Below the pieces are notes generated by a model. The model saw only the letters and a program-made list of their open reading frames with translations, ran no database searches and had not been told where the DNA came from. A DNA stretch of 55,125 bases from Atopobiaceae bacterium (GTDB lineage: Bacteria; Actinomycetota; Coriobacteriia; Coriobacteriales; Atopobiaceae). A program made the translations under genes and the position numbers. Within the stretch, counting starts at the first letter, position 1. Each line of letters starts with the position of its first letter. Location of the stretch: NCBI GenBank assembly GCA_017459605.1, contig JAFUCQ010000123.1, forward strand, positions 1 to 55,125, written 5' to 3'. Below are positions 21,155-42,228 of this stretch, piece by piece.

Positions 21155-21961
21155 TCACGCAGACGTCAGATAACCGGGCGTCCCGGCCTCATCTATGCGG
21201 AAGTACGTGCACGAGGTGTTGGAGTTCGACCATACGGTGCTGTTTCCGCCAACAAGGTTTGCGGAGCACGAGTAGAACAGGTAGTTGAAGTTCAGGTACG
21301 AGAACGTTGCCATGTAGCTCGCGAAGGTCGCGCTCGTGAGGTGCAGGCGGTGGGTCGGCCCGGTGACGACGTCCCAGGGAGTGAACCCGAGCCCCACGCA
21401 CGTGCCAATCGCGCAGATCCTCCCCGATGCAACGAGCTCACGCGAAGAATCCGGCGTGGGATTCGCCGTGAGCACGCCCTCGTCATCGCCCTCGTCATCG
21501 CCGGTGTCGCCCTTGTCACCTTTGACACCTTATGCCACATCGGCGGTTGTGGTGCCGTTCTTGTCGGTGATTGTGATTGTCGCTCCATCGGTGGTCTGCG
21601 TCACGGGCGCCGTCGGGGTGAAACCGTACGTGCCGTCGGCACCGTCGAAATCTCCGCGCTCGGCCGCAGTCGTCAGGTTCTCATGTGCCGTGTTGGCCAG
21701 CGCAGCCGTGGCATTCGCGGCATCGGTCGTGATCTCGGTCGCGTGCTCGTATGCGTTGATGGCGTCCACGAACAGCGTGAAGCCGTCCTCGTGCTCCTCT
21801 CCACCGATTACCACGGGCTCCACGCGGATGGTGAACACCCGAGAGCTGATATACGTGTCGTCGCCCCGAGAAACCATGACCTGGGCCTGCACGGCACCCT
21901 CGGCTTCCTGCATGGCGGCCGGGTAGTAGACCTCGAACGTCCCGGCAGCAGCGTCGGACTG
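21155..21961 (-). pseudogene. Broken phage baseplate/tail protein (BppU-like with collagen-like segment)
   Basis: The minus strand encodes GTFEVYYPAAMQEAEGAVQAQVMVSRGDDTYI-type sequence characteristic of phage baseplate upper protein N-terminal domains, then AINAYEHATEITTDAANA, then TTADVA and a TAA (21530-21532). Reading on in the same frame gives VKGDKGDTGDDEGDDEG, a collagen-like segment, and a C-terminal domain ending GTPGYLTSA at 21155. The stop is thus an in-frame nonsense break in one former gene. The 5' end is missing as well: recognisable phage sequence stops where the tRNA-derived att copy begins (21966). Confidence 0.7.
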
Positions 21962-21965
21962 ACCT

Positions 21966-22019
21966 GGAGTTTCATGGCGGGATGTACGCGACTTGAACTC
22001 TCGACCTCCGACGTGACAG
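21966..22019 (-). other. Left attachment site: 3' half of a tRNA-Asp gene (attL candidate)
   Basis: These 54 bp match 41261-41314 in 51 positions and in the same orientation. Read on the minus strand, they run from the anticodon loop CTGTCAC (anticodon GTC) through the variable region and T arm to the acceptor strand ACATCCC, discriminator G and CCA. Two of the three differences break pairs in the T stem, so this copy could not form a working tRNA. No 5' half is present. Confidence 0.75.
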
Positions 22020-22072
22020 TTGGGCAGGGCGGCGATAACAGGGAGTGACTGACGATGTGTAACGCTGGCTTG

Positions 22073-22217
22073 AACTGGGGAAATCGAAAACTGGCGATAA
22101 CTGGAGAAAACTGGAAATCTCGCGCGTTGGCTTAGCATTGGCTGAGGATTGGCTGAATTGAAAAGGTGGTCACGAATTCCGAATCCGATTGGCTTAGCCG
22201 AAAAGGTAGTCACAAAT
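22073..22217. repeat. Left-end recognition repeats of the element (candidate integrase/excisionase arm sites)
   Basis: Three sets of short direct repeats lie within 200 bp of the left att copy. AACTGG occurs at 22073, 22089, 22099 and 22109. TTGGCTTAGC occurs at 22127-22136 and 22189-22198, with shortened TTGGCTGA copies at 22138-22145 and 22149-22156. GAAAAGGTRGTCACRAAT occurs at 22160-22177 and 22200-22217. The TTGGCTTAGC word also occurs twice inside the right end, as expected for integrase arm-binding sites flanking an attP core. The stretch 22020-22312 contains no gene. Confidence 0.6.
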
Positions 22218-22312
22218 GAAAGCCTTTTCGTCAATGCGCAGTATGTTCCGTTTTCAAGATCGAAAGCGAGCGTCCACGGAATCTCCCATCAAGAACGTAT
22301 GACCTCCTCCAT

Positions 22313-27378: not shown

Positions 27379-28430
27379 ACGACAATCGCCTCCTGGCTGA
27401 AGTGTTCGATAGCTATTGTATCGAGTTGCGTTCGAATGTTCTCAAACGGCATGTCCAGCCCCAGCGTCTTCACGCTGATCTGGTTGCCATTCATCTGATA
27501 CACGCCATCCGGCTGCATATCCTCGTCGGTCCTGGCATAGAGCAGCATTCCCGATACCTCGTGCGACACTCCCGTCCGGGCGAGCTCTGCCTCCTTGTTC
27601 TTGACATAGGTGAAGATCTGGTACAGGTTGCCTGAGTGCACACTGCGCTTGTCGAACTGCTGCTGTGTCGTGTGGCTGTAGTACTTCGCGTCGATGATGA
27701 GAACCGTGCCGCCGCGCGTAAGGGTGATGTCGGTGTGCATAGCGGGCAGCATGTCATCGAAGCCATCGTCGAGTACCCAGCCGATGTAGGGAGCGCCGGC
27801 GTCAAGCTCGGGGTGCTCGCGCCGGTAGTACTCCAGAATGAACTTCTCGTATAGTCGGCTCATGCGCTGCTCGTCCAGGAAGTCCATCAGGCGGGATGTC
27901 CCGTCGGCCTGTGTCTGCAGCAGGCCCTTGGCCACCAGCCAGCACACGTTCATCAGCATGCGGTAGGTCTGGTTGTTTCGGTCGAACCGCATGTGCCAGT
28001 CGACCGTCGCCAGGTCAATGTCCCCGACATCCCCGAAGTAAACCAGCAGCCGCTTGAGCTCCTTCTTGCGAGCCTTGTCGATGTCGGAACGTACCAGCAG
28101 CACCATCGTTGCCTTGAGAATCCGATTCATGCGTGTGTCCACGCTGAACTCGTCGTAGCTGCAGACCATCTGCCGCCGCAACACAGAACGTGTCTTCACC
28201 GACTCGCTCACCTCGATCTTGCCGCGCAGGGTCGAAAGCGCGTCGGTCCGGTCAACGTACTCGCGCCCGAGCCCCCGCTTGAGCTGCGAGCTCACGCCGC
28301 GCGCTAGAATGGCGGCGCAGAGCTCGGCCGTGTTGGCGAACTTCTCGGTTGCCACGTCGCGGTAGCCCTGCTCGTGAAGCACCTGGAAGGCGTAGGCGAG
28401 CATGTGGTAGATGTTCTGTATGCGGATCAC
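27375..28430 (-). CDS. mcrC: McrC-type nuclease subunit of a McrBC system
   Basis: A 351-residue McrC-family protein. The N-terminal part (IQNIYHMLAYAFQVL, RGKIEVSESV) is the McrB-contacting region and the C-terminal PD-(D/E)XK nuclease core contains DITLTRGGTVLIIDAKYY, with the catalytic Asp and D-A-K. In known systems McrC is brought to modified DNA by the GTP-driven McrB ring and makes double-strand cuts. The start is taken as GTG at 28430, overlapping the mcrB TGA in GTGA; the frame is open ten codons further inside mcrB. It is followed by yhcG in a 4-bp overlap. Confidence 0.88.
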   Translation of the reverse strand: MIRIQNIYHMLAYAFQVLHEQGYRDVATEKFANTAELCAAILARGVSSQLKRGLGREYVDRTDALSTLRGKIEVSESVKTRSVLRRQMVCSYDEFSVDTRMNRILKATMVLLVRSDIDKARKKELKRLLVYFGDVGDIDLATVDWHMRFDRNNQTYRMLMNVCWLVAKGLLQTQADGTSRLMDFLDEQRMSRLYEKFILEYYRREHPELDAGAPYIGWVLDDGFDDMLPAMHTDITLTRGGTVLIIDAKYYSHTTQQQFDKRSVHSGNLYQIFTYVKNKEAELARTGVSHEVSGMLLYARTDEDMQPDGVYQMNGNQISVKTLGLDMPFENIRTQLDTIAIEHFSQEAIVV

Positions 28431-30619
28431 TTTATCGACCTGCGCAGCGCGTCGGCCCACTCCCGCACCTTGGACGGCTCGTCGAACCAGTACTCGCGCA
28501 GCATGGGGATGAGCTCGTACTCCACGATTGCCGAGAGCTTGGCGTCGGTCACGTCCTCTGTCTTCATGCCGCAGAAGTAGCTGTGACCAATGCAGAAGCC
28601 GTCACCAAGCGTCTCGTCGGCGGCAATCGCCTCGTTCAGGCGCACCACGCAGGCGAGGAGCTCGTTGAGCTTGTCGTTACCCAGGCCGTCGCGGTACGCG
28701 ACGAACCCGTCCGAACCAAAGCCAGGCTTCAGGTCGAAGAACGCGAAGCGGCGCCTCAGTGCGTAGTCGAGCATCGCCAGCGACCGGTCGGCCGTGTTCA
28801 TCATGCCGATGAGGTACACGTTGCTCGGAACATGGAAGAGCTCACGCGAGTAAAGCAACTGCAGCTTGTTCTTCGGCCCGCGTTTGTCGTTCTCGATGAG
28901 CATGAACAGCTCGCCGAAGATCTTGGAGAGGTTGCCTCGGTTGATCTCGTCGATGATGAAGAAGTAGTCGCTCTCGTCGTCGTCGGCCGCCCTCTTGCAG
29001 AAGGTGTAGAATGCGCCCTTCTCGAGCTCGAAGCCGTCGGCTGACGGGCGGTACCCCTCGATGAAGTCCTCGTAGCTGTAGCTCTGGTGGAACTGCACCA
29101 TCATCACGCGCTCGGGGTCTTTCACGCCCATCATCGAGTAGGCAAGGCGCTTCGCGATGAAGGTCTTGCCCACGCCCGGGGCGCCCTGCAGGATGATGTT
29201 CTTCTTCGAGCGGAGCACGCCGACAAGCGTGTCGTACTGCTCCTCGCTCATGTAGGCCTCGGTGAGGAACAACTCTCTATCGTATTCTGGATAATCGATA
29301 ACCGGTTCGTCATCGACGGTTTCTTCGACGGGGTCTATGAACAGGGATGCAATCTCGGCAACAAAGTCCGGGTAGTCAGTCACGTCAGTGAGCGTCTTCT
29401 GCGCGAATTTCTTTTCGCGAGTCCAGCTGCCTCGATGCGTCCACTTCACCCTGCGGATATGAGGGTACCCATCGGTAGCCTCGGCATCGTACTCGTAATC
29501 TCCCTCGACAATACCCCTGCCGATGATCTCGCTCATGCCGCGCTTGGCGAATATGATGTCTCCGGGCTTGATGTCATGAACGAACTGCCAGTTTGCATGG
29601 GCGGAGTTCTTCTGGGAAGTGTCGCCCCCGAACGTCTCGACCAGGTCTCTTCGCAGCTCCTCCTTGGTCGAGTATTTCCGCAGATCGCCGAGCTCCTCCC
29701 AGCCTAAGCCCATGACGCCGCGCTTGAAAAAGTCGTCCCACATGGCGGCGCCGTGACCAGGCGCGTAGAGCCAGTAGTGTGCAGTAACGACGTCGGCATC
29801 GCCGAGGGCGTTGTCCTCAGCCTCTTTCTCGGCGGCCTTCTCTGCCGCTTTCTTCTCCTTGTTGACGCGCTCGGATTCGACGAAGGCCGCGTTGGAGAGC
29901 GATGGGAAGTCAGCGTATGGACAAACCTCGGTGCCGAGCTCCATCTTGATTGCATCGCATATGGCGAGGTATCGCTCACCGTCGTGGATTGGCGTGTCCT
30001 TCTCCTTCGGCACGATATCGGCAATAGCCTCACCGGTCTTTGCGACGTCGCCCATGAACCAACGGTTGCGCGAGTCCAAGTTGATAAACGACAGCGGCCT
30101 CGCCCAGTAAAGGCCCATAGTCAGCTTCCAACCGAGCCCAAACTGAGTGACAGTGTCGTTGAACGCCTCGACAAAAGCCTTGCGATTCTCGGCGTTGTCA
30201 TCGGCTGCAAGGGCGATCTCCGCCTCGAAGACTTGCCAGAGGTTGTCGATATCGTGCTCTCCGCGACGGTCATCGCCAACGAAGGCATAGAAGGTCGCGT
30301 TGAGGTTGTTGAGTACGGGGATTCCGTCGAAGTCACTTGGCACATCAGATTCAATGCCAAATGCTTCAGCAATGGCGGCTATAATCTTCTTCCTGTTCGC
30401 TTCCGAAATGCCCTTGTTAAAGAGCCCGTAGACGGTGTACGGGTCGATGTCGGCAGGAACCGACGCGCTGTCAAGCTTTGGAAGCTTCATGCCGATGCCC
30501 TCATACAGGGCCTGTAGCTTCCCAATTAATCCTATGCGGTCGTCTTTGTAGGGAAGAAGCGCTCCGGCTAGCTCCTGGTAGAAGCTGACCCATGTGCAAG
30601 TTGCTTTCGTATCGTCCAT
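28427..30619 (-). CDS. mcrB: McrB-type AAA+ GTPase of a modification-dependent restriction system
   Basis: A 730-residue protein. The C-terminal AAA+ domain has Walker A ILQGAPGVGKTFIAKRLA near residue 478, Walker B YFFIIDEINRGNLSKIFGE near 550 and the McrB signature MMNTADRSLAMLD. The middle part, YWLYAPGHGAAMWDDFF through GDIIFAKRGMSEIIGRG, looks like an EVE/PUA-type modified-base reader, and the N-terminal 230 residues are an unassigned helical domain. The start at 30619 has GAGGTGA five bases upstream; an ATG at 30643 overlaps the hsdS stop (ATGA) and is the alternative. It pairs with McrC downstream. The base modification recognised is unknown. Confidence 0.88.
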   Translation of the reverse strand: MDDTKATCTWVSFYQELAGALLPYKDDRIGLIGKLQALYEGIGMKLPKLDSASVPADIDPYTVYGLFNKGISEANRKKIIAAIAEAFGIESDVPSDFDGIPVLNNLNATFYAFVGDDRRGEHDIDNLWQVFEAEIALAADDNAENRKAFVEAFNDTVTQFGLGWKLTMGLYWARPLSFINLDSRNRWFMGDVAKTGEAIADIVPKEKDTPIHDGERYLAICDAIKMELGTEVCPYADFPSLSNAAFVESERVNKEKKAAEKAAEKEAEDNALGDADVVTAHYWLYAPGHGAAMWDDFFKRGVMGLGWEELGDLRKYSTKEELRRDLVETFGGDTSQKNSAHANWQFVHDIKPGDIIFAKRGMSEIIGRGIVEGDYEYDAEATDGYPHIRRVKWTHRGSWTREKKFAQKTLTDVTDYPDFVAEIASLFIDPVEETVDDEPVIDYPEYDRELFLTEAYMSEEQYDTLVGVLRSKKNIILQGAPGVGKTFIAKRLAYSMMGVKDPERVMMVQFHQSYSYEDFIEGYRPSADGFELEKGAFYTFCKRAADDDESDYFFIIDEINRGNLSKIFGELFMLIENDKRGPKNKLQLLYSRELFHVPSNVYLIGMMNTADRSLAMLDYALRRRFAFFDLKPGFGSDGFVAYRDGLGNDKLNELLACVVRLNEAIAADETLGDGFCIGHSYFCGMKTEDVTDAKLSAIVEYELIPMLREYWFDEPSKVREWADALRRSIK

Positions 30620-30639
30620 ATCATTCACCTCGCGACTTG

Positions 30640-32007
30640 TCATTTGCCAGCATTACCGCTCATTATGCTGGCTAGCAGCTCCTTTGAGCTTGCCTCGCCC
30701 GGATCATTAGTCCCAAGCTCGCCACGCAGCGCTTTTGCTAGTATTGCTTGCCGCGTTAACGTAGTGATCTCAAGCACGCTCCTAACAGTTGAGAGCGCCT
30801 GTTCTTCTTTCAAAAGCAAGATATCGAGCTGCCTGATAATCTCGGCCCTCTCCTCGCTACTTGGGCAATTGAACTCAAGGTTCCTGAGTCCTTTGATCGG
30901 AACTGTTAGTTGCGCCGTTCCGGTAGCTATTGCAGTCGCCTTTTCAAACATTCTTTGGCTTCTCAGTAAGTACCAAAGATACTTCTGCTCTATATCGCTA
31001 GGCTTTAGAAGCGCCATATGCCGCTGAAAACAGAATGGTCTCTCATCGTCTACCATTACAGGAATGCCATACGATCCAACTAAAGTGTAAAGGACATCCC
31101 CAATTTCGGGTTTTCTGGTTGCTGTCAAGTTGTTGTAATAATCCTCGGGTACAAAGCGCGTATCTTCAAAAGACAGATGCCCATCGTTGACATTCGATAT
31201 TACGAGAAAAGGGATGCCATTTGCTGCTTTAGGCGGGGGCATGTGATCGCCGTCAAAAATGCTCGAACATACATCACCTAAGGTCTTCTCAGTCCATGTT
31301 TCTTGGCTTATGCCATGCTCTCTTCTCCAAGGTTCCGTCAATTGACCCGAGAATGCTTTGTGAAGAATCGCCGCCTGTCTCTGCTCTGAGCCGTCGATTA
31401 CCTCGCGCAACTCAGCTTCTGCATCGTCGAGCTTTGCGAAGAGCCATTCGATGCGGGATGCGATTCTCCGCTGCTCGTGTAATGGCGGCAATGGAATGAC
31501 ATAGTCCTTGATATAGCGCGGTTGAGCACGCATGAGCGACCCGCCCACTCCAGAAACATGCGAGAGCAACTGTTCGCGGAAGAAGTGCGCAGAGAGACAG
31601 CGCATAAGAAAATTGGGTTCATAAACTGCACTGCGTATTACAACCCATTCCGATGAGGCTATAAGTGTCTCGTCTGTGTATTTGGTAACCTTCCATACAC
31701 GATTGATCCTTGGGTTGATTTTGCACAACAATACATCGTCTTTTTGTACAGATTGTTTGGTCGATCCAATTTCAGAGCCAGCAATGATCTCTGGGTAATC
31801 TTCTTCAAGACTTGGTACGCTATACAGCTCAAAAAAACGGTCTGGTGTTTTGCTTGGATCGACGGAGGAGCTTTTGTAGGAATTTACAGAGCCGATTCTG
31901 ACCCAGCACCAATTCTCTGGCACCTCATAAGGCCACTCGCTTTCTGGTACGAGAGCCGCTTCCAGCTGTTCTTCGGGCGTGAGCACACGTTTCTTCCTAG
32001 CAGCCAT
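30640..32007 (-). CDS. hsdS: Type I restriction specificity subunit HsdS
   Basis: A 455-residue HsdS with two target-recognition domains (each about 150 residues) separated by a conserved helical spacer. The repeated ends IPLPPLHEQRRIASRIEWLFAKLD and FNCPSSEERAEIIRQLDILL are typical, as are the following coiled-coil helices with RQAAILHKAFSGQLT and RQAILAKALRGEL. It sets the bipartite DNA target of the HsdM/HsdR complex. Its ATG overlaps the hsdM stop by one base (TAATG). Base composition of the recognition domains is lower in GC than the neighbouring hsdM and hsdR, as usual for exchangeable TRDs. Confidence 0.93.
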   Translation of the reverse strand: MAARKKRVLTPEEQLEAALVPESEWPYEVPENWCWVRIGSVNSYKSSSVDPSKTPDRFFELYSVPSLEEDYPEIIAGSEIGSTKQSVQKDDVLLCKINPRINRVWKVTKYTDETLIASSEWVVIRSAVYEPNFLMRCLSAHFFREQLLSHVSGVGGSLMRAQPRYIKDYVIPLPPLHEQRRIASRIEWLFAKLDDAEAELREVIDGSEQRQAAILHKAFSGQLTEPWRREHGISQETWTEKTLGDVCSSIFDGDHMPPPKAANGIPFLVISNVNDGHLSFEDTRFVPEDYYNNLTATRKPEIGDVLYTLVGSYGIPVMVDDERPFCFQRHMALLKPSDIEQKYLWYLLRSQRMFEKATAIATGTAQLTVPIKGLRNLEFNCPSSEERAEIIRQLDILLLKEEQALSTVRSVLEITTLTRQAILAKALRGELGTNDPGEASSKELLASIMSGNAGK

Positions 32008-33434
32008 TACTCCACCTCGTAGGATTTGAGCTCGGCAATGACGTCGTTCAGCAGCGATATTGCGTCCTCGAGCTTGCTGACGGCCTCCTCGGCGCTCTCA
32101 ACAGGATCGGGAAGGTCGTCGTAGTCGACAATCGAGGCGTCGCGGATGAGGCCGATGTCCAGGCTGTTCGTCTCATGCCCAGCGCTGTCGTGCTTGCGGA
32201 TCTCATCGCGCGTGAACACGTGCCAACGCTCGTCTTGTATGGCATGCCGATCCTCGGCGGTGTAGGCCATCTCGAAGCCGGCGAAGTCCTCGTGCGCGAG
32301 CGGATGCGTCTTCCCGAAGCTGCGCATGTTGGTGCGCAGGTCGTAGTACCAAACCTCGCCCGTGTTGCCCTTGTCTGTCTTTCCGCGCTCGAAGAAGAGC
32401 ACGTTCGTCTTCACGCCCTGGGCATAGAAGATGCCAGTCGGCAGGCGGAGAACCGTGTGCAGGCGGCACTTGTCCATCAGGTCGCAGCGGATTTGGTCGC
32501 CGACACCGTCCTCGAAGAGCACGTTGTCGGGTAGTACCACAGCCGCACGGCCGCCCTTCTTGAGACTGCGGTAGATGTGCTGCAGGAAGTTCAGCTGCTT
32601 GTTGCTCGTCACGTAAGTCAGGTCGTCGCGCGTCGCGCGCTCGCCGCCCTTCTTCGTGCCGAACGGTGGATTGGTGAGCACCACGTCGTACACCTGGCTG
32701 CAAGCTCCTGCGGGGGAAAGCGTGTCGCCTAGCTCGATCCTGCCCTCAATGCCATGCAGCATCGCGTTCATCAGCGCAAGGCGGTGCGTGTCGTGCACTA
32801 GCTCGCGCCCGGTGAACGCCTCCTCGCGTTGGAACTTCTCCTCGTCAGCGGAAAGGTCGAAGTAGTCGTCGGTCTGCGATTTCACGTAGGCATCGGCGGC
32901 GATCATGAAGCCGAAGGTCCCAGCGGCAGGGTCGTTGCAGAGCTCGCCAGGCTGCGGGGCGATGAGCCTCGTCATGACGTCGATGAGCACGCGCGGGGTG
33001 AAGTACTGGCCTGCCCCGGACTTCTTCTCGTTCGCGTTCTTCTCGAGCAGCCCTTCGTACAGGTCGCCAAGACCTTCCTCACGGGCCGAGTACCAGTCGA
33101 GCTCGTCGATGCTTGATATTATCTTCTCGAGGTTCTTGGGCTCGTCGATGTTGCTCGCTGCGCCCTGGTAGATCTCGCGGATGCGCCCGGTGCCGTTCTC
33201 TCCGAGCTCGTCTAGAAGCTCCTTGTAGAACTTCTTGAGCGCGATACCCGACTTGGAAGTCAGGTCTTCCCAGCGGTAGCCCTGCGGCAGCTGTTCCTCG
33301 CGTCCCGTCTCGTTCATCATCTTGAGGAACAGGATGTAGGTGAGCTCAGTGACGTAATCCTGGTAGGTTATGCCGTCATCCCGAAGGACATTGCAGAGGT
33401 TCCAGAGCTTCGCGACGATTTCCTGTGTTGTCAT
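32007..33434 (-). CDS. hsdM: Type I restriction modification methylase HsdM
   Basis: A 475-residue N6-adenine methyltransferase. The N-terminal helical HsdM domain is followed by the SAM-binding motif NDPAAGTFGFMIAAD and the catalytic LTNPPFGTKKGGE (NPPF) motif, then LRLPTGIFYAQGVKTNVLFF. With HsdS it methylates the host target sites, protecting them from HsdR. The gene overlaps hsdR upstream by 4 bp (ATGA) and hsdS downstream by one base, so synthesis of the three subunits is coupled. Confidence 0.95.
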   Translation of the reverse strand: MTTQEIVAKLWNLCNVLRDDGITYQDYVTELTYILFLKMMNETGREEQLPQGYRWEDLTSKSGIALKKFYKELLDELGENGTGRIREIYQGAASNIDEPKNLEKIISSIDELDWYSAREEGLGDLYEGLLEKNANEKKSGAGQYFTPRVLIDVMTRLIAPQPGELCNDPAAGTFGFMIAADAYVKSQTDDYFDLSADEEKFQREEAFTGRELVHDTHRLALMNAMLHGIEGRIELGDTLSPAGACSQVYDVVLTNPPFGTKKGGERATRDDLTYVTSNKQLNFLQHIYRSLKKGGRAAVVLPDNVLFEDGVGDQIRCDLMDKCRLHTVLRLPTGIFYAQGVKTNVLFFERGKTDKGNTGEVWYYDLRTNMRSFGKTHPLAHEDFAGFEMAYTAEDRHAIQDERWHVFTRDEIRKHDSAGHETNSLDIGLIRDASIVDYDDLPDPVESAEEAVSKLEDAISLLNDVIAELKSYEVE

Positions 33435-36400
33435 GCAGCACGCCCCTTGTCGTCATACAGATAGGTGTTCAGTTCGTGGACGATATCGACAAGCTCCCCG
33501 TGGAAGACCTTGTCGAGCTTCTTAAACCCGCCCTTGCTCTTGAAGCGCTCATCTTCGTCGAAGACGGACGCGTTCAGGACAGAGTCGTTTATGAGGTAGG
33601 TCTCGATGCGATCGAGCCAGTTAAGCTCTTGCTTGCTGAAAGAGTGGGCGGCCTTGAGACGTTCCACGGCGCGATGTATGCGCTCCTCATGGCTGAGCAG
33701 GATGGAGCCGATAGCATAGCGGCGCACGAGGCTGATGATGTCGGCGGCCATCTCGGCATTCGTCATCTCGGATATGGCCCTATTAAGGCGGGTTGCGTTG
33801 AACCCGGCGCGGTCGAGCGTCAGCTCGAGCTCGCGCAGCGTTTCGCGCGTCAGGTCGGCGGGCTTCGTCACGCACAGGTTGAGCGCCGCCACCTCGTTAA
33901 CATGGGTCGTGATGTAGTCGCTGAACGCCTCTAGGTAGTCTTCTGGCCTCGCTCCGCCGCCGTAGTCGCGGGTATGGCTTACCAGCTCGTCTGGCGCATC
34001 TGATATCACGACAGCGTGGCCCTTGTTCGCATGCACCTCGTCAAGTGCAGCAAGGATTTCGCGCTGCTGCTTGGCGCGCTGCTTGGCAGCCTGCGGGTCG
34101 TCTCCATGCAGGTCGCGCGTGAACTCCTCGAAAGAGAACCCGGCGTGCTCCTCGGCTGCCTTGAGCTGCTTTTCGCTCAGCGAGTGAATCTTGCGCTGCA
34201 GCTTGGCGATGAGTCTGTCGATTTGCACCTGAACGTCATCGTCGTCCTCGTAGTAGTCCAGACCGTCGATAAGCTGTGCGATGGTCGTGGTCGGGTTTGC
34301 GGATATCGGCCTCATGGTGCTTACGGGTTCCAGCGCCTCGTATACGCCAACGGGGTCGAATATCTCGAAGTGCGTCTTGTGGATATCCGGGCAAAGGCGC
34401 GTCGCGCGTCCGAGCATCTGCTCGAACAGAATGCGCGACTTCACTCGCCGCATGAACACGAGCGTCGTCAGCTCCGGCACGTCGATGCCGGTGGTAAGCA
34501 GGTCGACGGTCACGGCGATGGACGGGTACGGCTCGTTCTTGAACCTGCGCACCAGTTCGCGTGTTCGCTTTGGGTTTCCCCCTCCGGCTGCTGCGGTGAT
34601 CTTCATTATCGCGTCGTTGTCCACGCCGGTTTCGGAGTAAATCTCTTTGAGTATGCGCACGATCATGTCTGCATGCGCGTCATCAACCGCGTATATGAGC
34701 GTCTTGCCCTGTTCCTCGGGGGCCTCGGGATCGATGTATGCTGCGATCTCCTCGAGTATCGCCCGGTCGATGTTCTCGTCGACGACGCTCTTGTTGAAGT
34801 CGTCGACGTCGAAGTCGAGCTCGTCCTCCAGCTCTGCGCCGTTGATGAGCTCGCCGGTCTTCGGGTTATATACGGTCACGGTATCGCCGCTTTTGTAGTG
34901 AATTCCGCCCTCGGTGAGCTTCGTCTTGAGCGTGTGCGGCACGTCATGGTCGACAAGGTAGCCGTCGATAACCGCCTCTCGGTAGGTGTACTGGAACACG
35001 GGAGCACCGAATATCTGCGTCGTGTGCAGGGCAGGCGTCGCAGTGAGGGCGATTTTCATGGCGTCGAAGTAGTCGATTACCGCGCGGTACTTGCTCTGGT
35101 AGTCTCGCTGGTCGCGGTAGAGAGACTCCTCCTCTGTCATCTCCTTGTCCAGGATGTAGCCGCGGTGCGCCTCGTCCACGATGACGAGGTCGAAGTCGGT
35201 TACGGCAGGTTTGTTGCCCTCGCCGTCGTCGTACATGATCCGCTTCACCATGCTCTGCACGGTGGCGATGGATATGCGTGTCTCGGGATTAATCTCGGCA
35301 GTGTCGAGGCCCTTTACCTCGTATATCTGATCGAGAGCCATCAGCTGCTCGATCTTGACGTCCTTGAAGGCGTCCTCTGCCTGCTCGCCGAGTGCGTCGC
35401 GGTCAACGAGGAACAGGATACGGCGGAACCGGTCGGTCGATAGGAATCGGTAGATCATCGCTAGCGCCGTGCGGGTCTTGCCGGTGCCGGTCGCCATAGC
35501 GATGAGCGCCGTTGGCTTGCCGGCAATGACCGCCTTCTCGGCGGCGGACACGGCCTTTATCTGGTATTCGCGCAGGTTCAGCCCGTCCTTGTCCCGTAGA
35601 AGGTCGTAGGGCTCGTCGGCAAGGCGTTGGTTGGCGGCCTTCACGTCCTCTTGCAGCATGCGCATGAGCGCCTGCGGTCGCGGCCAGCCGCGCAGCGGCT
35701 TTGGCGCGTTCGACGGGTCGCGCAGGTCGAGCGACCAGATGCCGGATTTCGTCTCGTACTGCTTGAGATAGGGCCTGCCGTTCGTGGCGAACGTGAACGG
35801 CACTTGATAGTGGCCGTCGTACTCGATGGCGACATAGCAATAGTCGACCTGTCGGATATGGCTCGAGTAGTCTTTGCACTGCACGTCGAGCACAGAGAGC
35901 ACATCCTTGCGCTCCGCTTTGGCCTCGACCGTACCCACCATAGTTTCGTCCACGAAGAAGGCGTAGTCCACGTAACCGCCGTCACCGATACTGGAATCCG
36001 TCGGCCATTCGGCAATCGCCATGTTGTGGCCCTTCTTGGGGCGTGCGCCCTTTGAGTGGCGAATCGTCTCTGTGTCTGCTTCCCAGCCGGCGTCGCGCAT
36101 CGCCGCGTCGACGAGGAGGCGTGTCTCCTTCTCGGTCTTCGGACGCTGGTTCTCGGCTTCCAGAACGCGCTTGACGCGCTCGGCTTTCGAGACCTTCGGG
36201 GCGGCCTTCGCCTTCGCCTTGGCTTCCTCGGCAAGCTTCTCGTCTTCGGCTTCGCTTGTCTTTGTCGGCACAGCAGGCCTGGCCTCAGGTTCCGCTTTTG
36301 CTGGCTCCACATAGGGACGCATCTCGTACTGCTCGTTGCCGAAGGCCATGGCGAACCAGAGGCAAACGCTGTACGTTATTCTTACAAGCCCGCTCGCGAG

Positions 36401-36706
36401 TTCAACTGACTCGTAGCCCTCGTGGACAGCCCGGTTGCGCGCCTTGCGCATCTCGTGCAAAACGCTCACGATTTGCTGAGGAAGGTACCCCTCGCTCGCT
36501 AGACGGTTGATCTTCGTGACAGCCTTCTGATCGGCGGGCTCCTCAACGCCAGTGAAACCGTAGATCATGTCGACGATGCTCTCGCCGATCATGCCCACCT
36601 TGATGAGCGCGGAATTCGAATCGTCCGCGCAGTAGCTTTCCGCCTGGTTTCCAAATGTGGCCAACGCGGGGAACTCTTTTGTGAGGAAGTCGAAGTTGCC
36701 GCTCAT
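33431..36706 (-). CDS. hsdR: Type I restriction endonuclease subunit HsdR
   Basis: A 1091-residue HsdR. After an N-terminal DUF4145-like helical domain and a lysine/alanine-rich linker (about residues 140-190), the nuclease domain shows VDYAFFVDETMVGTVEAKAE near 250-270. The SF2 translocase has Walker A MATGTGKTRTA near 400, DEAHRG near 509, ALTATPA and the motif VI GRATRLCPD. It translocates DNA and cuts at a distance when unmethylated targets are bound by the complex. The start is MSGNFDFLTKEF at 36706, in an ATGA overlap with the stop of the small RHH gene. Confidence 0.95.
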   Translation of the reverse strand: MSGNFDFLTKEFPALATFGNQAESYCADDSNSALIKVGMIGESIVDMIYGFTGVEEPADQKAVTKINRLASEGYLPQQIVSVLHEMRKARNRAVHEGYESVELASGLVRITYSVCLWFAMAFGNEQYEMRPYVEPAKAEPEARPAVPTKTSEAEDEKLAEEAKAKAKAAPKVSKAERVKRVLEAENQRPKTEKETRLLVDAAMRDAGWEADTETIRHSKGARPKKGHNMAIAEWPTDSSIGDGGYVDYAFFVDETMVGTVEAKAERKDVLSVLDVQCKDYSSHIRQVDYCYVAIEYDGHYQVPFTFATNGRPYLKQYETKSGIWSLDLRDPSNAPKPLRGWPRPQALMRMLQEDVKAANQRLADEPYDLLRDKDGLNLREYQIKAVSAAEKAVIAGKPTALIAMATGTGKTRTALAMIYRFLSTDRFRRILFLVDRDALGEQAEDAFKDVKIEQLMALDQIYEVKGLDTAEINPETRISIATVQSMVKRIMYDDGEGNKPAVTDFDLVIVDEAHRGYILDKEMTEEESLYRDQRDYQSKYRAVIDYFDAMKIALTATPALHTTQIFGAPVFQYTYREAVIDGYLVDHDVPHTLKTKLTEGGIHYKSGDTVTVYNPKTGELINGAELEDELDFDVDDFNKSVVDENIDRAILEEIAAYIDPEAPEEQGKTLIYAVDDAHADMIVRILKEIYSETGVDNDAIMKITAAAGGGNPKRTRELVRRFKNEPYPSIAVTVDLLTTGIDVPELTTLVFMRRVKSRILFEQMLGRATRLCPDIHKTHFEIFDPVGVYEALEPVSTMRPISANPTTTIAQLIDGLDYYEDDDDVQVQIDRLIAKLQRKIHSLSEKQLKAAEEHAGFSFEEFTRDLHGDDPQAAKQRAKQQREILAALDEVHANKGHAVVISDAPDELVSHTRDYGGGARPEDYLEAFSDYITTHVNEVAALNLCVTKPADLTRETLRELELTLDRAGFNATRLNRAISEMTNAEMAADIISLVRRYAIGSILLSHEERIHRAVERLKAAHSFSKQELNWLDRIETYLINDSVLNASVFDEDERFKSKGGFKKLDKVFHGELVDIVHELNTYLYDDKGRAA

Positions 36707-36918
36707 TTGGAAACACCCGCCTCGGCTGTGAGACGCTGGATGGCGCATTGCCGTATGTATGCCGAGAAGCTCATGCCCGAAAGCGACGCTTCCTCAGATA
36801 TGGCCGCCTTGAGGTTGGTGGGTATCCGAATGGTAGTGGTGGCCATTTCGCCTTTAGCGAGATAGGACTGGATCTCCGTGCGGTCGGCTCCCTTGTCTAC
36901 GAGTTCACGATATCCCAT
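36703..36918 (-). CDS. Ribbon-helix-helix DNA-binding protein heading the restriction operon
   Basis: A 71-residue protein whose C-terminal 47 residues are an Arc/CopG-type ribbon-helix-helix: the beta strand TTTIRIPTNLKAAI followed by two helices with SGMSFSAYIRQCAIQR. A short acidic leader of 24 residues precedes it. AGGAGG eight bases before the ATG supports the long form; MATTTIRIP would be the short one. Its stop overlaps the hsdR start (ATGA). Such proteins are antitoxins or repressors; here no toxin is adjacent and two direct repeats lie just upstream, so autoregulation of the whole restriction operon is the most likely role (inference). Confidence 0.8.
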   Translation of the reverse strand: MGYRELVDKGADRTEIQSYLAKGEMATTTIRIPTNLKAAISEEASLSGMSFSAYIRQCAIQRLTAEAGVSK

Positions 36919-36940
36919 ATCGGTTGCCTCCTATCCGTAC

Positions 36941-36960
36941 CGAATACATCCGAATACATT
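36941..36960 (-). promoter_or_regulatory. Direct-repeat operator candidate of the restriction operon
   Basis: CGAATACATC and CGAATACATT are adjacent 10-bp direct repeats starting 22 bp upstream of the RHH start codon. Ribbon-helix-helix dimers commonly bind pairs of short repeats placed one helical turn apart, as here. A possible -35 TTGATA lies beside them on the minus strand. Confidence 0.5.
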
Positions 36961-37039
36961 CTATCAAACTGAACGAGGCACGATGATAGCTCGCGGCTAT
37001 GAATTAGAGGCCGAATTGTTCGAATTGTTTTGCCGCACG

Positions 37040-37410
37040 TCCTGGCTGCCGGCCTGGCCGTGCGCTACCAACCTCGGTTTGACCGCAGCCCGGCCGCCCA
37101 CGCTCCGGGTGTGCGCTCGGCCCGTTCGTGCCACATGCCGGCCGCGCGCCCAGGAAGTCTCCCGCACGGCCAGCTGTCGGCTCCGTGTGGTCTTCGCATA
37201 CGCGCCTACGGCAGCCCGCTGGCGCGGTCTGCCTCCGGCTGCGTGCTCAGCCCACACTACGCCGCCATTTGGCCTACCGCAGCGTTATCGGGGGCGAGCG
37301 TCCGTCATGCGTCACGCCCGGTGCAGCGGCGCACACCCGGAGCGTGGCCGTCCGGTCTGCTACCGTCACGCGCTCGTCCGCGCCCGTCCAGCCCATCAGC
37401 CAGCGCGGGC
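37040..37410. repeat. GC-rich non-coding gap with a long inverted repeat
   Basis: CCACGCTCCGGGTGTGCGC (37098-37116) recurs exactly as its reverse complement at 37329-37347, 212 bp apart, and the sequences flanking the arms show weaker inverted similarity (CTGGCTG near 37053 against CAGCCAG near 37400). The stretch is extremely GC-rich. Several frames are open over 80-260 codons, but the products are Arg/Ala/Pro-rich with no family features, as expected from composition. The gap 36919-37436 (518 bp) thus appears to hold a structured element such as a replication or transfer origin, or an RNA. Confidence 0.5.
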
Positions 37411-37436
37411 GGCAAAGGCTATGAGGAATCGTCTCT

Positions 37437-37844
37437 TTATGCCTGAGCATCAAGGGACGATTGCTGCTCGGTCTTTCGCCACGTACGCCCGAAAAGGGCT
37501 TCTCCATCAGGGCCCAGCGAAAGAACAACTGCATCGGATAAAGCGCGTTGGGCAATTTCAGGGTATGAGGACAACTTGTCGATGGCAACGAAAGTTTGCT
37601 TGCTGGCATTCAGATAGGCTTGGGCAAGCCCTGCAATCGCTTGGTTTTCGATGTTCTTAAACATAATCGAGTCGTGTACGAGCGTGGGTACGTCAGCGGC
37701 TTCAAGCATTGCAAGGTCGAATTCGATTACCCCTCTCGGCGTTTCGCTCCCCGGCGTCGAAGCCGTGGCGTTCAGCTCCTTCGGGGAGAAGTCGGGCTGG
37801 GGTGAAAGCTTCGACATCAAGGAAAAGGGGCTTTCAAAGATCAT
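37437..37844 (-). pseudogene. C-terminal remnant of a DUF2326-type ATPase-associated protein
   Basis: A 135-codon frame whose core, VIEFDLAMLEAADVPTLVHDSIMFKNIENQAI followed by KQTFVAIDKLSSYPEIAQRAL, matches the conserved C-terminal DUF2326 region of large SMC-like ATPases that occur in defence-associated gene sets (ABC-3C-like). The family protein is usually over 500 residues; the ATPase and coiled-coil parts are absent, and no matching frame lies upstream. It is therefore called a fragment. The GC is lower than in the gap on its left. Confidence 0.5.
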
Positions 37845-37952
37845 CGGTTAGCCTGGTTCTCCTGTCCCAAGCTCTTTTTTGTATTCTCGCTTTATGCGCG
37901 ATTCAGCTCAATGTGGTTAGTGGGGCAGTCAAACCGCTTGGGCAACGGCGAT

Positions 37953-38050
37953 GGAAGGGCGTAAACGTGTGCTTCGGCACGTTTCCGCCCTTCCGTTGCC
38001 TTTCGCTGAGGGGGTACAACAACATCATGTTTCTTATAGGTGATGTTGTT
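37953..38050. terminator. Two strong hairpins between the DUF2326 remnant and repA
   Basis: The first hairpin pairs 37953-37969 (GGAAGGGCGTAAACGTG) with 37978-37994 over 17 positions with one mismatch and a TGCTTCGG loop. The second pairs AACAACATCA (38018-38027) with TGATGTTGTT (38041-38050) perfectly around 13 bases. They follow the repA stop on the minus strand and could end that transcript or serve as protein-binding sites; neither has a clear T-run. Confidence 0.55.
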
Positions 38051-38084: not shown

Positions 38085-39212
38085 TCATATCCTCCTGCGG
38101 CGGATGATGGTGCTTGAAGCACTGCTTACGAGCTCGAAGAGCTTGCTTTCCTCAATATGCTTGTTGATGGTCCGCTTGTCTTTGCCGATGTAGCTGACGA
38201 ATGCCTTGCGATCTACCTCTTCCTGGTTCCCCATGAACTCCTCGAGTGCTGCCTCGATTTCGGCGCGAGTTGCTTCGCTTCGATCCCTGCCAGGGCAATG
38301 CGCCCTTCCCGGCTTGTGCGCATTGCAGCTTGCAAGCGTGCCCGTGTCGTCCGTCACGTGGATGGGGTGGGTGAACCAGATGTTGAGCGGCTCCGGTGAT
38401 TTGAAGTCGCGAAGCACGAATTCGAGCCGAAACGGAATCGCGCCTCGGCGGCCCCTCAGCCTTTCCGCCATGAAGGCATCGTCGTTCATGCCGAGCTCCA
38501 CCATGTCGATGAGAGCGTCGGCGTCGCGGCCAAACACGCCCGAGCCCGAAGCCCAGTCCTGCGCGTTCTTTCCTCCCTGGCCGCCTTTCGAATGGTGGTG
38601 GCTGTATGCCACCGTGCAGTCGAGCGCCTCGACGAGGCGGTCGAGCTCCGCGCAGAACCGCGTGATGGCATCCGCGTCGTTTTCCGAGCCCGGTTGTATC
38701 TTGTAGGCGGGGTCGATGATGACGAGATCGAATTCTCCGCGCTTGCAAGTTGCGATGAGACCATCGACGAGCGTCGCCGCATCGGAGTACTTGCTCCTCA
38801 GGTTCGCGACCATGAGGTTATCGTTCACCATCGTCCGGTTCGCGTGGAGCGCGTCGGTGACGCGGCAGACGCGGTGCATGAATTGCGGTCGCTGGATCTC
38901 GAGGTTAACGTAGAGCACGCGCCCCTTCATGCATTTGAACCTGTCGAGCCACCAGCCGCCGGTCGAGACCGCGACGGCGAGCTCGATGAGCGGGTAAGAC
39001 TTGCCTGCCTTCGAAGCCCCGGCGACGAGCAGCTTGCCGCCTTTACGGATGACTCCCTCGATTATCTCGGGTGGCAGCTCGGGGAGCTCCTCGTATTCTG
39101 TTATGGCAGGTTCGGCATGGATGACGGGCGTGCCTTCAGCGCCATCGACTTCGCCGTTTGCGATTAGCTCCTCGACCATGGCCATGTATTCCTCGCGCAT
39201 GCTCATGGTCAT
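38085..39212 (-). CDS. RepA-like AAA ATPase (hexameric helicase type)
   Basis: A 375-residue protein of the AAA_25/RSF1010 RepA-like RecA-fold class. It has Walker A LLVAGASKAGKSYPLIELA, Walker B FDLVIIDPAYKIQPGSENDA, and the SHHHSKGGQGGKNAQDWASGSG motif typical of these helicases, plus a C-terminal winged-helix-like tail (EVDRKAFVSYIGKDKRTINKH). On integrative elements such proteins drive replication of the excised circle. The start follows the stop of an excisionase fragment by 3 bp, which indicates a former xis-repA operon. The GC-rich inverted-repeat gap to its left could be its origin (inference). Confidence 0.8.
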   Translation of the reverse strand: MTMSMREEYMAMVEELIANGEVDGAEGTPVIHAEPAITEYEELPELPPEIIEGVIRKGGKLLVAGASKAGKSYPLIELAVAVSTGGWWLDRFKCMKGRVLYVNLEIQRPQFMHRVCRVTDALHANRTMVNDNLMVANLRSKYSDAATLVDGLIATCKRGEFDLVIIDPAYKIQPGSENDADAITRFCAELDRLVEALDCTVAYSHHHSKGGQGGKNAQDWASGSGVFGRDADALIDMVELGMNDDAFMAERLRGRRGAIPFRLEFVLRDFKSPEPLNIWFTHPIHVTDDTGTLASCNAHKPGRAHCPGRDRSEATRAEIEAALEEFMGNQEEVDRKAFVSYIGKDKRTINKHIEESKLFELVSSASSTIIRRRRI

Positions 39213-39846: not shown

Positions 39847-41202
39847 ATGGCAAACAGCAAAGGAGATGGCAGCATCTACCAGGCCAAGGACAAGAACGGT
39901 AAGCCAATCCCGAACTGCTGGCGTATTAGCGTCTCGTTCGGCAGCTCAGGCTGTGACCGTCAGCGTGTGCAGTGCACCGTGCACGGCACCAAGGCCGAGG
40001 CCAAGAAGAAGCGCGACGAGATCCGCCGTCAGCACGAGGAGGGTCTCGCAATCGACGCCGGCAAGGTGACAGTCTCGGAGTTCATCGAGACGTGGCTCGA
40101 AGCACGCCAGACCACCGGCAAGGTCAGCGAGTCCACCATCAAGAACTACCGCGCAAGGCTCAAGACCATCGAGCCCTACATCGGCAAGAAGAAGCTCAAC
40201 AAGGTCACAGCTGCCGAGATCGAGCGCGCCTACGCTCAGCTCAAGGCGAAGAAGAAACTGTCGGGCACCACGCTCAACAAACTGCACATCCTGCTGAAGT
40301 CGGTCTTCGAGAAGGCGTGCGACTACGACCTCATCCTGCGCAATCCGTGCAACAAGGTCGAGTCACCCAGCGTCGACAAGCCCGACCGAAAGCCCCTCAC
40401 CCAGGAAGAGGGCGCAACGCTCCTGCACAAGCTCGACATGGAGGAGGCACGCATCATCCGGGAGATGGACGAGAAGGAGGAGCGCCAGGTGAAGAAGGGC
40501 AACCAGTTCGGCCGCAGCTCGATCCGCGGCCTGGCCAACCTCGGCTTCACCATCGGCACGCGCATCGCGTTGGCAACCGGGCTTCGCCGCGGCGAGGTTT
40601 TCGGCCTCACATGGAAGAACGTCAACCTGCGCCAGAACACGATAACCGTAGCCCAGACGCTCACCAAGGAAGGCGATATAAAGGACCCGAAGACCGGTGC
40701 CGGAAGGCGCACCATCAGTATCGACGAGAACACGGCGGCTCACCTCAAGATGTGGCGCAAGCGCCAGCGCGAGGAGCTCGCGAAGCTGACAATCAAGCTC
40801 GGCGATGCCACGCCGGTGTGCTGCAGCGAACGCGGCGAGTGGGTCAACCTCGCGAACTTCGAGCGTTGGTGGCGTTCCTTCCGAGAGGAAGCAGGCTTCG
40901 ACGGCCTCCGCTTCCACGAGCTCCGTCACAGCCAGGCAACATTGCTACTGGCGAACGGAACCGATCTCAAGACTGTCCAGGACCGCATGGGCCATGCCAA
41001 CGGCGCGATTACTTTGAACTGGTACGCGCACGCCATCCCCGAGAACGACCAGAAGGCAGCGCAGCTTGTTGGAAACCTCTTCGGGACGCCTCCGAAGCGG
41101 ACACAACGCGGACAATCGAAAATCATCAACCTCGCCGAAAACTCTACGCATGCGGAGAGAATTGGCGAAAAACCCGACGCGGTTGGCTTAGCTTTGGCTT
41201 AG
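39847..41202 (+). CDS. int: Tyrosine-family integrase of the element
   Basis: A 451-residue site-specific recombinase. It has an N-terminal arm-binding AP2-like domain (GSIYQAKDKNGKP), a SAM-like core-binding domain (VSEFIETWLEARQTT) and the catalytic domain with Arg in ATGLRRGEVFGL near 244, HELRHSQATLLL near 356-367 and the nucleophile in HANGAITLNWYAH near 391. An insertion of charged residues precedes the first catalytic Arg. It would integrate the element at the tRNA-Asp 3' end and, with an excisionase, release it. Its last codons contain two TTGGCTTAGC arm-site words, and the att copy lies 58 bp downstream. Confidence 0.95.
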   Translation: MANSKGDGSIYQAKDKNGKPIPNCWRISVSFGSSGCDRQRVQCTVHGTKAEAKKKRDEIRRQHEEGLAIDAGKVTVSEFIETWLEARQTTGKVSESTIKNYRARLKTIEPYIGKKKLNKVTAAEIERAYAQLKAKKKLSGTTLNKLHILLKSVFEKACDYDLILRNPCNKVESPSVDKPDRKPLTQEEGATLLHKLDMEEARIIREMDEKEERQVKKGNQFGRSSIRGLANLGFTIGTRIALATGLRRGEVFGLTWKNVNLRQNTITVAQTLTKEGDIKDPKTGAGRRTISIDENTAAHLKMWRKRQREELAKLTIKLGDATPVCCSERGEWVNLANFERWWRSFREEAGFDGLRFHELRHSQATLLLANGTDLKTVQDRMGHANGAITLNWYAHAIPENDQKAAQLVGNLFGTPPKRTQRGQSKIINLAENSTHAERIGEKPDAVGLALA

Positions 41203-41203: not shown

Positions 41204-41260
41204 CGCCGCGATTCCCGGCCTCGGAGAAACAAAAAGGCCAGCCGCATAATGGGCTGACCA

Positions 41261-41314
41261 GGAGTTTCGTGGCGGGATGTACGAGACTTGAACTCGCGAC
41301 CTCCGACGTGACAG
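41261..41314 (-). other. Right attachment site: 3' half of a tRNA-Asp gene (attR candidate)
   Basis: The minus strand reads anticodon loop CTGTCAC, stem GTCGG, variable AGGTC, an intact T arm GCGAG/TTCAAGT/CTCGT, acceptor strand ACATCCC, discriminator G and CCA. The T stem pairs properly here, unlike in the left copy. The 5' half of the tRNA should follow at 41315 onward, but that sequence is instead the end of trmB. This is a tRNA fragment, not a functional tRNA gene. Confidence 0.8.
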
Positions 41315-41322
41315 ACAAAAGG

Positions 41323-42228
41323 TCATGAGATGCGTGCTTTTGCTCGTGCGTTAGCTTTGCGGTTTCGCAGATTGGTAACCGCTGCTTGCATACCATGTGG
41401 TACGTAGTCGAGTGAGTCTAAGTCCTGCGGCAGATAGTCCATGAGACTAACAGGCTTTCGCGGAGTTTGAGCAGCGTTACCACTTGGGTGAGCAACCAGT
41501 TCATAGACGCGAGCTCCCTGTTCACAAAGACGCTGTTCATATTCACTGAGAGGCTCATCAGGGCGCTCTGCTCGAGCATCATCGCTACGGTGAATCACCT
41601 CAAATCCGGCGTGTGCCAGCTCATCTAAAGCAAAGTCTCGCAAGGGTAGGCTGTCGGTTCTGAGTCGCAGTACTCCCGTTGGGCTGAGCAGCTCTCGATA
41701 CAACATGAGGTGCTCGTAGTTGACTACACGCCGGGCGGCATCTCGCTTTCGAGGAAATGGCGTGGGAAAATTCAGTTGTATGGTGTTGAGTTCGTGAGCA
41801 GTAAAGAAGGAGGGGAGATTGCGAGCGAGGCCAGCAACAACAACAGCATTTGGTAGTTTCTGCTCAACGATGCGTTGTGCTGCGTAAGCAACACAAATCG
41901 GTTCGCTATCAATTCCTACGAAGAGCGTGTTCGGATGAAGACGAGCCATGCCTGCAAGATAAATCCCTTTGCCACAACCCAAGTCGAGAAAAAGCTCATC
42001 GTACGAGCCTTCGGTCATCTCGCCAGCATGAGTCGTCTCGCCAGTATGGGTTGCCTCGCCAGTATGAGTGGTCTCGTCTGTCTGAGTAGCCTTACCAATA
42101 GCTGGATAGCACAGTTTCGTCCAGTTGCCCTTGAGGCGTGCGGGTTCTAACTCAATAGCTGGAGCATAGCGCTCGAGGCGCTCTTCAAGCACAAAATTCT
42201 TAGGTAGGCGCGCATGCATGGCGTGCAT
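41323..42228 (-). CDS. trmB: tRNA (guanine-N7)-methyltransferase
   Basis: A 301-residue TrmB, which methylates G46 in tRNA variable loops. The SAM-binding motif is LFLDLGCGKGIYLAGMA, followed by VGIDSEPICVAYA and the family motif NFPTPFPRKRDAARRVVN. Two oddities are seen. Residues about 48-71 carry four copies of a THTGET-like hexapeptide inserted between the N-terminal region and the SAM motif, and the C-terminus after YVPHGMQAAVTN is basic and longer than usual. AGGAGA precedes the ATG. The gene stops 8 bp before the att copy, so integration has not cut it. Confidence 0.9.
   Translation of the reverse strand: MHAMHARLPKNFVLEERLERYAPAIELEPARLKGNWTKLCYPAIGKATQTDETTHTGEATHTGETTHAGEMTEGSYDELFLDLGCGKGIYLAGMARLHPNTLFVGIDSEPICVAYAAQRIVEQKLPNAVVVAGLARNLPSFFTAHELNTIQLNFPTPFPRKRDAARRVVNYEHLMLYRELLSPTGVLRLRTDSLPLRDFALDELAHAGFEVIHRSDDARAERPDEPLSEYEQRLCEQGARVYELVAHPSGNAAQTPRKPVSLMDYLPQDLDSLDYVPHGMQAAVTNLRNRKANARAKARIS
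42014..42085 (-). repeat. In-frame 18-bp tandem repeat inside trmB
   Basis: Four consecutive 18-bp units (42014-42031, 42032-42049, 42050-42067, 42068-42085) with a consensus close to GTCGTCTCGCCAGTATGA encode hexapeptide repeats of the THTGEA/THTGET kind. It is the one clear tandem repeat of this style that lies inside a gene here. Confidence 0.9.

Follow-up and report, generated by a model that had tools for sequence, protein, structure and literature searches.

What is the role of a long inverted repeat that lies in an extremely GC-rich gap without a credible gene, next to a repA-like gene of an Atopobiaceae bacterium? The gap measures 518 bp (36919-37436 of the window, i.e. the whole stretch of 55,125 nt analysed here), as had been stated in an earlier reading made without database searches (the sequence-only reading), and the perfect 19-bp inverted repeat described there was placed exactly, at 37098-37116 and 37329-37347 with 212 nt between the arms. 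No other perfect inverted repeat of at least 19 bp with a loop of less than 400 nt occurs in the 55-kb window. The arms extend to 32 nt at 91% (left arm 37085..37116, right arm 37329..37360, both on the plus strand), and the gene for a RepA-like AAA_25 ATPase (38085..39212, minus strand), which had been put at 0.7 kb, is indeed 0.66 kb away. The weaker outer pairing claimed in the same reading is present too, but reaches further than described, with 69% self-complementarity over 37029-37416, i.e. over nearly the whole of an element of 395 bp. Likewise, the span proposed for it (37040-37410) falls on the element, while the bounds are slightly wider: homology boundaries, an alignment of 27 copies, covariation and the fold place a candidate structured RNA of 395 nt, a rod with one tip, at 37026..37420 on the minus strand, with its 5' end at 37420. 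Its GC content is 72.7%, against a maximum of 67.6% in the other 395-nt stretches of the window, taken every 25 nt. A further inverted repeat, with 26-nt arms at 85% and an 8-nt loop, is found at 37944-38003, between a DUF2326 fragment and the repA-like gene.

A structured RNA was one of the two guesses that had been offered for the gap, and it is strongly supported by covariation, fold, genomic place and the existence of subtypes. Folding of both strands, a check suggested at the outset, gave a stable end-to-end fold. The minus strand folds into a single rod (-253 kcal/mol, z -8.0) and the plus strand reaches -220 kcal/mol (z -5.6), in both cases with none of 100 shuffled sequences as good. 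From 47 matched stretches, 27 full-length copies, 69-90% identical to that of the window, were aligned, leaving out the truncated, internally deleted and duplicate ones. RNAalifold predicts 105 pairs for the minus-strand alignment, 29 of them with two-sided changes, and by an independent count 97.9% of the cells in the 27 copies are paired. Double-change cells number 128, compared with 30.0 +/- 5.9 in a set of 500 shuffles and with no more than 13 after displacement of the partners by 1-3 columns. The compensatory base changes thus exceed both the column-shuffle and the slid controls, as is the case for conserved structured RNAs. A short internal loop of most copies is fully complementary in the window copy and in L030, i.e. 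several bases of one arm match the other at once, and some of the double changes could stem from copying of one arm onto the other during replication, which would mimic compensation.

The energy is lower on the minus strand in all 27 copies and the z-score in 21 of them. Folding from either strand recovers 86 pairs in common, and these contain 31 G-U against 16 A-C cells, a strand bias of 2 to 1; because this ratio is modest and each consensus favours its own strand, the strand call leans on gene context. Protein coding is not indicated. Indels relative to the window copy are dominated by those of 1 nt (102) and 2 nt (13), with two of 3 nt; the best reading frame is open in 19 of the 27 copies, and each of the three minus-strand frames is open in 0 of 27. 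Therefore, the conserved protein that would have spoken against the earlier reading was not found in the frames of the 27 aligned copies, and the lack of conservation in related elements that would equally have done so is contradicted by the same 27 full-length copies and their covariation. Rfam covariance models gave no match in the window at gathering score, and those at E values up to 10 (best 1.1-8.5) fell on unrelated families at chance level. Taking these comparisons together, we consider it very probable that the element is a selected RNA encoded on the minus strand.

The copies belong to phages, prophages and islands of the class Coriobacteriia. At an E value of 1e-6 or better, 30 of 396 genomes of the class have a match, and all finds of the element came from Coriobacteriia genomes or from viral contigs that carry the same type of portal gene. 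An exact 20-base piece of it occurs in 18 contigs of the genome collection, 17 of which have a longer match, with that in Corallococcus restricted to approximately 21-32 nt. The assembly from which the window comes (89% complete) harbours the element once in full and once with an internal deletion, the latter on contig C47. Short or internally deleted copies, retaining only the outer stem or one arm, are represented by this one (L058, G000:C47, 10192-10333) and by L116, L117, L118 and L119, the last three of which are still located beside a portal gene.

The recurrent neighbour of the element is this phage portal gene. In G042, one member of the phage family, the portal is of the SPP1 type (phrog_533, Pfam SPP1_portal) and is accompanied by a major head protein (phrog_422), by head-tail adaptors and by Dit; the other members were recognized by similarity to the G042 genes. 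On the portal strand the order is primase/RepA, a small gene, terL, portal, RNA, a variable cassette, a gene for a protein of 166 aa, head protein and tail, with terL named by position and by eye and the 166-aa gene called scaffold by position. A portal match, in some cases in two pieces, lies immediately 5' of the RNA, i.e. the RNA is 3' of the portal, in 21 of the 27 aligned copies; in the other six, a portal remnant is found in G027 and G361 and none in the window, G346 and G158, while L017 could not be judged. The distance between portal and scaffold is 4.7-14.6 kb in the 28 loci that contain both, duplicates included. In loci L047, L100-L119, L138-L171 and L242-L249, a variable cassette with many genes for restriction and other defence takes up the space between them. 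That of G042 contains a type III restriction-modification (RM) system and an SNF2-type helicase, and others, identified by eye and from partial matches, contain type I RM systems, C5 methylases, helicases and others. Judged by these genes, the interval between portal and scaffold is a phage defence hotspot. The first genes of the cassette point toward the RNA in at least five copies (L063, G264, G405, L017 and G358), and therefore the RNA is not simply a cassette leader. A small related ribbon-helix-helix (RHH) gene comes first in the cassette of several of the phages.

Relatives of the portal led to 41 loci in IMG/VR. With a profile built from the 27 copies (E up to 1e-3), the element was detected on the portal strand and 3' to the portal gene in 23 of them, counting L133, where only two end fragments match, and L166-L168, where the match is weak (4e-4) and 2.5 kb away. 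In ten other loci, in which the profile matched nothing at 1e-3, that very place is occupied by a structured, GC-rich stretch, with z-scores from -4.4 to -13.6; the lowest values, from 12 shuffles each, are -11.3 in L135, -13.6 in L136, -10.9 in L137, -5.8 in L139, -7.6 in L140, -6.6 in L153, -4.4 in L155, -6.6 in L157, -10.6 in L158 and -10.4 in L160. Three architectures can be distinguished beside the portal, i.e. the rod with one tip, a Y of approximately 510 nt with two tips and a short rod of approximately 320 nt. In L135-L137, a long, near-perfect basal stem opens into two arms, each of which ends in the tip motif of the window rod. The consensus of the two-tip form is based on eight sequences (six of 507-519 nt, L140 with 393 nt and L139 with 562 nt, at least two of them identical) and has 190 pairs, 26 with double changes.

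The tip motif, CUGAGC-N13-CAGACC-...GGGCUG...-GCGAAGAC, lies at 37190..37250 on the minus strand of the window, and a pattern match detects it in two-tip and short-rod relatives as well. Its internal loop, GGCUGAGC / GCGAAGAC, presumably resembles the kink-turn Kt-7. Among the 27 aligned copies, CTGAGC-N-CAGACC-N-GCGAAGAC occurs in its strict form in 20 and in a looser form in 26, with the strict form absent from seven. Eight loci without a profile match contain the motif, namely L135, L136, L137, L140, L142, L143, L144 and, more loosely, L158, while L139, L153, L155, L157 and L160 showed no match to it; L139 resembles L135 in sequence. Across the class, 36 matches were found in 28 of 396 genomes, compared with four for the pattern read backwards, and outside Coriobacteriia, in the same phylum, one of 270 genomes has the motif, without the GGGCTG step. 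In IMG/VR, 45 contigs contain it and 16 contain the inner GGGCTG step too; all 16 are portal contigs, including L189, for which the portal on the same contig is that of L137. Wherever a row with the motif has a portal match, the motif follows the portal on the 3' side and shares its strand, at a distance of 123-1450 nt. Seven motif copies lack a portal, and additional portal references revealed none in the 3-kb pieces that surround them.

The short rods overlap the portal reading frame. In seven of nine loci, the portal stop codon ends 20-72 nt after the beginning of the profile-matched RNA, and the start of the full RNA is extrapolated to 107-108 nt before that end, so that the stop codon (CGGGCGTGA; CGAGCGTGA in L251) stands inside the RNA sequence in these seven. 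In the remaining two, the RNA begins approximately 870 nt further on. The position of the stop codon makes it nearly certain that RNA and portal would be on a shared transcript in those seven of nine loci, some of the short-rod loci looking like one element seen in two collections. The short-rod consensus, from nine sequences that are 84-100% identical, comprises 110 pairs, six with double changes; its 75 G-U versus four A-C cells are a count biased by the strand used for folding.

Compensatory changes, strand bias and the overlap with the portal frame in one subtype therefore argue for an RNA rather than for the replication origin or oriT that had been the other initial guess. The search against plasmids that had been recommended gave no match in 72,556 plasmid records, and distant BLAST likewise gave none in 50,697 phage records. 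Since most relatives adjoin a portal gene and not repA, the origin reading is left unsupported.

In the window itself, the element is part of an island of about 19 kb bounded by att-like direct repeats (left 21955..22019, right 41250..41314), with a left core at 21975-22019 that is identical at 43 of 45 positions to the right core at 41270-41314. By eye the repeat looks like the 3' end of a tRNA gene; ARAGORN reported no tRNA at either copy. The island contains genes for an integrase, RepA, the DUF2326 fragment, the RNA, the RHH protein, HsdR, HsdM, HsdS and a YhcG-type nuclease. The tyrosine integrase (39847..41202, plus strand) shows 38-47% identity to that of several phages carrying the RNA and 28% to others, and the RepA-like ATPase, matching a PHROG DNA primase, shows 29-41% identity to genes of some related phages. 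The DUF2326 C-terminal fragment, recognized by a domain match (37437..37844, minus strand), ends 16 nt before the 5' end of the RNA. On its other side, the RHH gene (36703..36918, minus strand; Pfam NikA-like just above and RHH_1 just below the cut-off) is the first of the defence operon; its product is 41-50% identical to most of its phage-type relatives, and relatives of the gene stand at the same place in several phages. It is followed, all on the minus strand, by hsdR (listed ORF 33431..36748, probably with its true start near 36706; EcoEI_R_C, ResIII, PADLOC REase_I 1.6e-217), hsdM (32007..33434; PADLOC MTase_I 4.3e-210) and hsdS (30640..32007; PADLOC Specificity_I 8.4e-71). An AAA_5 ATPase gene (28427..30643) on the same strand as the hsd genes encodes what we take to be a McrB-like protein.

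Portal, terL/terminase and head or capsid genes gave no match in the 55-kb window, whose DNA similarity to loci G383, G361 and L066 is confined to the RNA. In G346, a block of RNA, RHH, HsdR and HsdM is 82-87% identical to the window at the DNA level and is broken at the far end of the RNA, and phage structural genes gave no match to the references across the 59.9 kb of it examined. The fold is retained in both copies: two of the 105 consensus pairs are broken in that of the window and three in that of G346, with a range of 0-8 over the 27 copies, and against the consensus of the 24 other copies three and five of 107 are broken, respectively. Comparing window and G346 directly on the union of the two consensus folds, six pairs are kept and ten broken, and therefore this pair provides no evidence for selection in islands. 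The RNA thus survives without adjacent phage genes; either it is still working there or the loss is recent.

Two further stretches near the island borders were observed. The DNA at 21253-21482, outside the repeat-bounded island, matches a prophage locus of G139 at 79% and is possibly a remnant of another prophage; an ORF beside it (21530-22234, minus strand) matches phrog_32779, for which no function is annotated. At 41323-42228 (minus strand), an ORF that by eye resembles a tRNA methyltransferase contains a low-complexity tandem insert of THTGE/THAGE units.

Our main reading, to which we assign a probability of roughly 0.6 on the basis of comparative sequence data, is that the element encodes a large, hyperstable structured RNA of a family that temperate phages of Coriobacteriia carry 3' to their portal gene, with a cis role on the late transcript as the leading candidate function. 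The RNA would form in the course of late transcription, when the polymerase moves out of the portal gene, and co-transcription with the late genes, as proposed for the short rods, may be general across the family. It could then act in cis where the head-gene transcript meets the variable defence cassette, with the conserved tip binding a protein and the long rod serving as a transcript boundary, a processing site or a read-through signal. In the window, such an RNA would stand upstream of RHH-HsdR-HsdM-HsdS, on their strand, in an island in which no phage structural genes were detected. Two loci weaken antitermination as a full account: L141 carries opposite-strand cargo next to its portal, with no RNA detected, and the RNA of L158 is followed by another set of genes, which by eye look like lysis genes. 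Both therefore argue against a pure read-through device. Action in cis on its own transcript is the component that we propose more tentatively, ranking it over a free RNA acting in trans and, after that, over a function in packaging.

A trans-acting structural RNA, i.e. a rod or Y cut from the late transcript and working as a free RNA or an RNA-protein particle, as is supposed for GOLLD and ROOL, is somewhat unlikely in our judgement. It would fit the size of approximately 320-510 nt, the conservation of the stems in sequence and not in pairing alone, the common tip module shared by several architectures and the intact fold where phage structural genes were not detected; moreover, GOLLD and ROOL are described as phage RNAs that form cages and whose function is unexplained (PMC12286853). 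Against it, the element is without a known partner protein, and a sigma-70-like promoter of its own was found in neither of the two regions scanned, a weak test in which the shuffle means were just 0.5 and 0.2 and the result hence little informative. Terminator-like sites, none in the window and two in L047, were uninformative as well, given a shuffle mean of 1.1. Extending this line of thought, the hyperstable rods with one or two protein- or RNA-binding tips may form a new class of large phage RNA that functions as a particle or a late-transcript switch and matters to a widespread phage family of gut Coriobacteriia, and which satellite-like defence islands lacking phage structural genes would carry to exploit or block the helper phage, a scenario that we regard as doubtful.

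A packaging element appears quite unlikely, whether as a cos or pac DNA site or as a packaging RNA that acts with the portal and terminase and that a satellite-like island retains for its own packaging. It draws on the location 3' to the portal gene and next to a defence hotspot, and on an island that lacks detected terminase, portal and capsid genes and yet possesses the element, an integrase and RepA. A parallel is offered by the P2/P4 hotspots, since the P4-like satellite hotspot adjoins cos and a cos-proximal hotspot of P2-like phages lies beside the portal gene (PMC9122126), which keeps the packaging explanation alive. Eight contigs (L014, L018, L019, L021, L026, L062, L065 and L069) truly end inside the rod, at element positions that are, in ascending order, 19, 88, 91, 94, 95, ~127, 214 and ~275, four of them within 88-95; the end of L067 was left out of this count as a storage cut only, and L142, L143 and L144 end inside their element too. 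However, two of these contigs, L014 and L018 with the ends at 19 and 95, belong to the same assembly and share an overlap of exactly 77 nt, like a branch in an assembly graph, and the remaining ends scatter. The ends therefore do not clearly speak against a packaging site, nor do they raise its odds, and assembly breaks explain contig ends inside the element better than virion ends, which are less likely. In addition, the subtypes differ greatly in length and fold, and similar rods accompany portals of different clades, ~70% and ~85% identical to the reference portal; RNA and portal can therefore be exchanged separately.

Selfish palindromic DNA of the MITE type, or a recombination anchor for swapping defence cassettes, is very improbable. 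A short inverted repeat (TTTGCCGC/GCGGCAAA) is indeed present at the ends, the element edges are often where homology with the neighbours breaks off, and short, internally deleted copies exist. Nevertheless, the 89%-complete assembly of the window contains just one full and one deleted copy, no target duplication was noticed in the flanks of one alignment, and divergent subtypes, several with the same tips, occupy the same place; above all, most copies keep their place and strand beside the portal, which disfavours a MITE. Equally improbable is an RNA antitoxin or guide of one neighbouring defence system: restriction and other defence genes adjoin the element in many copies, but they vary too much (type I RM, type III RM, C5 methylases and helicases, with names given partly by eye), none is constant, and the gene that recurs next to the element is that of the portal.

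The large structured RNAs known from bacteria and their viruses fall into only a few classes. To these, the family described here would add strong comparative evidence, a recurrent portal neighbour and, in one subtype, an overlap with a reading frame. Its natural variants, i.e. one tip, two tips, a deleted middle and copies without detected phage genes, together with their genomic context, make its function testable by deletion or complementation in lysogens, and the RNA serves as a marker of a defence hotspot in phages that infect an important group of gut bacteria.

Among the papers listed by searches of 5.39 million open-access articles, none dealt with this RNA. A paper on Eggerthella lenta prophages (PMC8778435) contains no word match for non-coding, ncRNA, palindrom or inverted repeat. 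The Collinsella-1 motif (RF01700) is named in PMC2864571. No Rfam family, RF01700 included, matches the element.

Several known systems invite comparison. The put RNA of phage HK022 and antitermination RNAs of the EAR type act in cis and are far smaller; a cis-acting RNA at the head of a long transcription unit would fit the position of the element, without membership being claimed. The pRNA of phi29, a packaging-linked phage RNA, is much smaller too, and the likeness lies in a phage RNA possibly linked to packaging, while the element matches no Rfam family. GOLLD and ROOL are often encoded near phage tRNA islands, whereas no tRNA was found near the element in the 55-kb window. The RNAs studied here also differ from GOLLD and ROOL in forming a rod or Y beside the portal gene, and from these two and OLE in lacking an Rfam match at gathering score. 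GOLLD and ROOL are described as large structured phage RNAs that form cages, and the functions of GOLLD, ROOL and OLE are poorly understood (PMC12286853); the element shares with GOLLD and ROOL that it is phage-borne, measures hundreds of nucleotides and has an elaborate conserved fold. At the level of the locus, a parallel exists with the defence hotspots of P2-like phages and P4-like satellites, described as a variable antiviral cassette of ~1-5 kb at a fixed position in the phage (PMC9122126, Rousset et al. 2022). Likewise, a variable defence cassette is found here at a fixed place near the portal, although the distance from portal to scaffold is 4.7-14.6 kb, and the term non-coding RNA has no word match in the text of that paper. 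We assign the element to the large structured phage RNAs, a known kind, as a copy of a family that seems not to have been described before.
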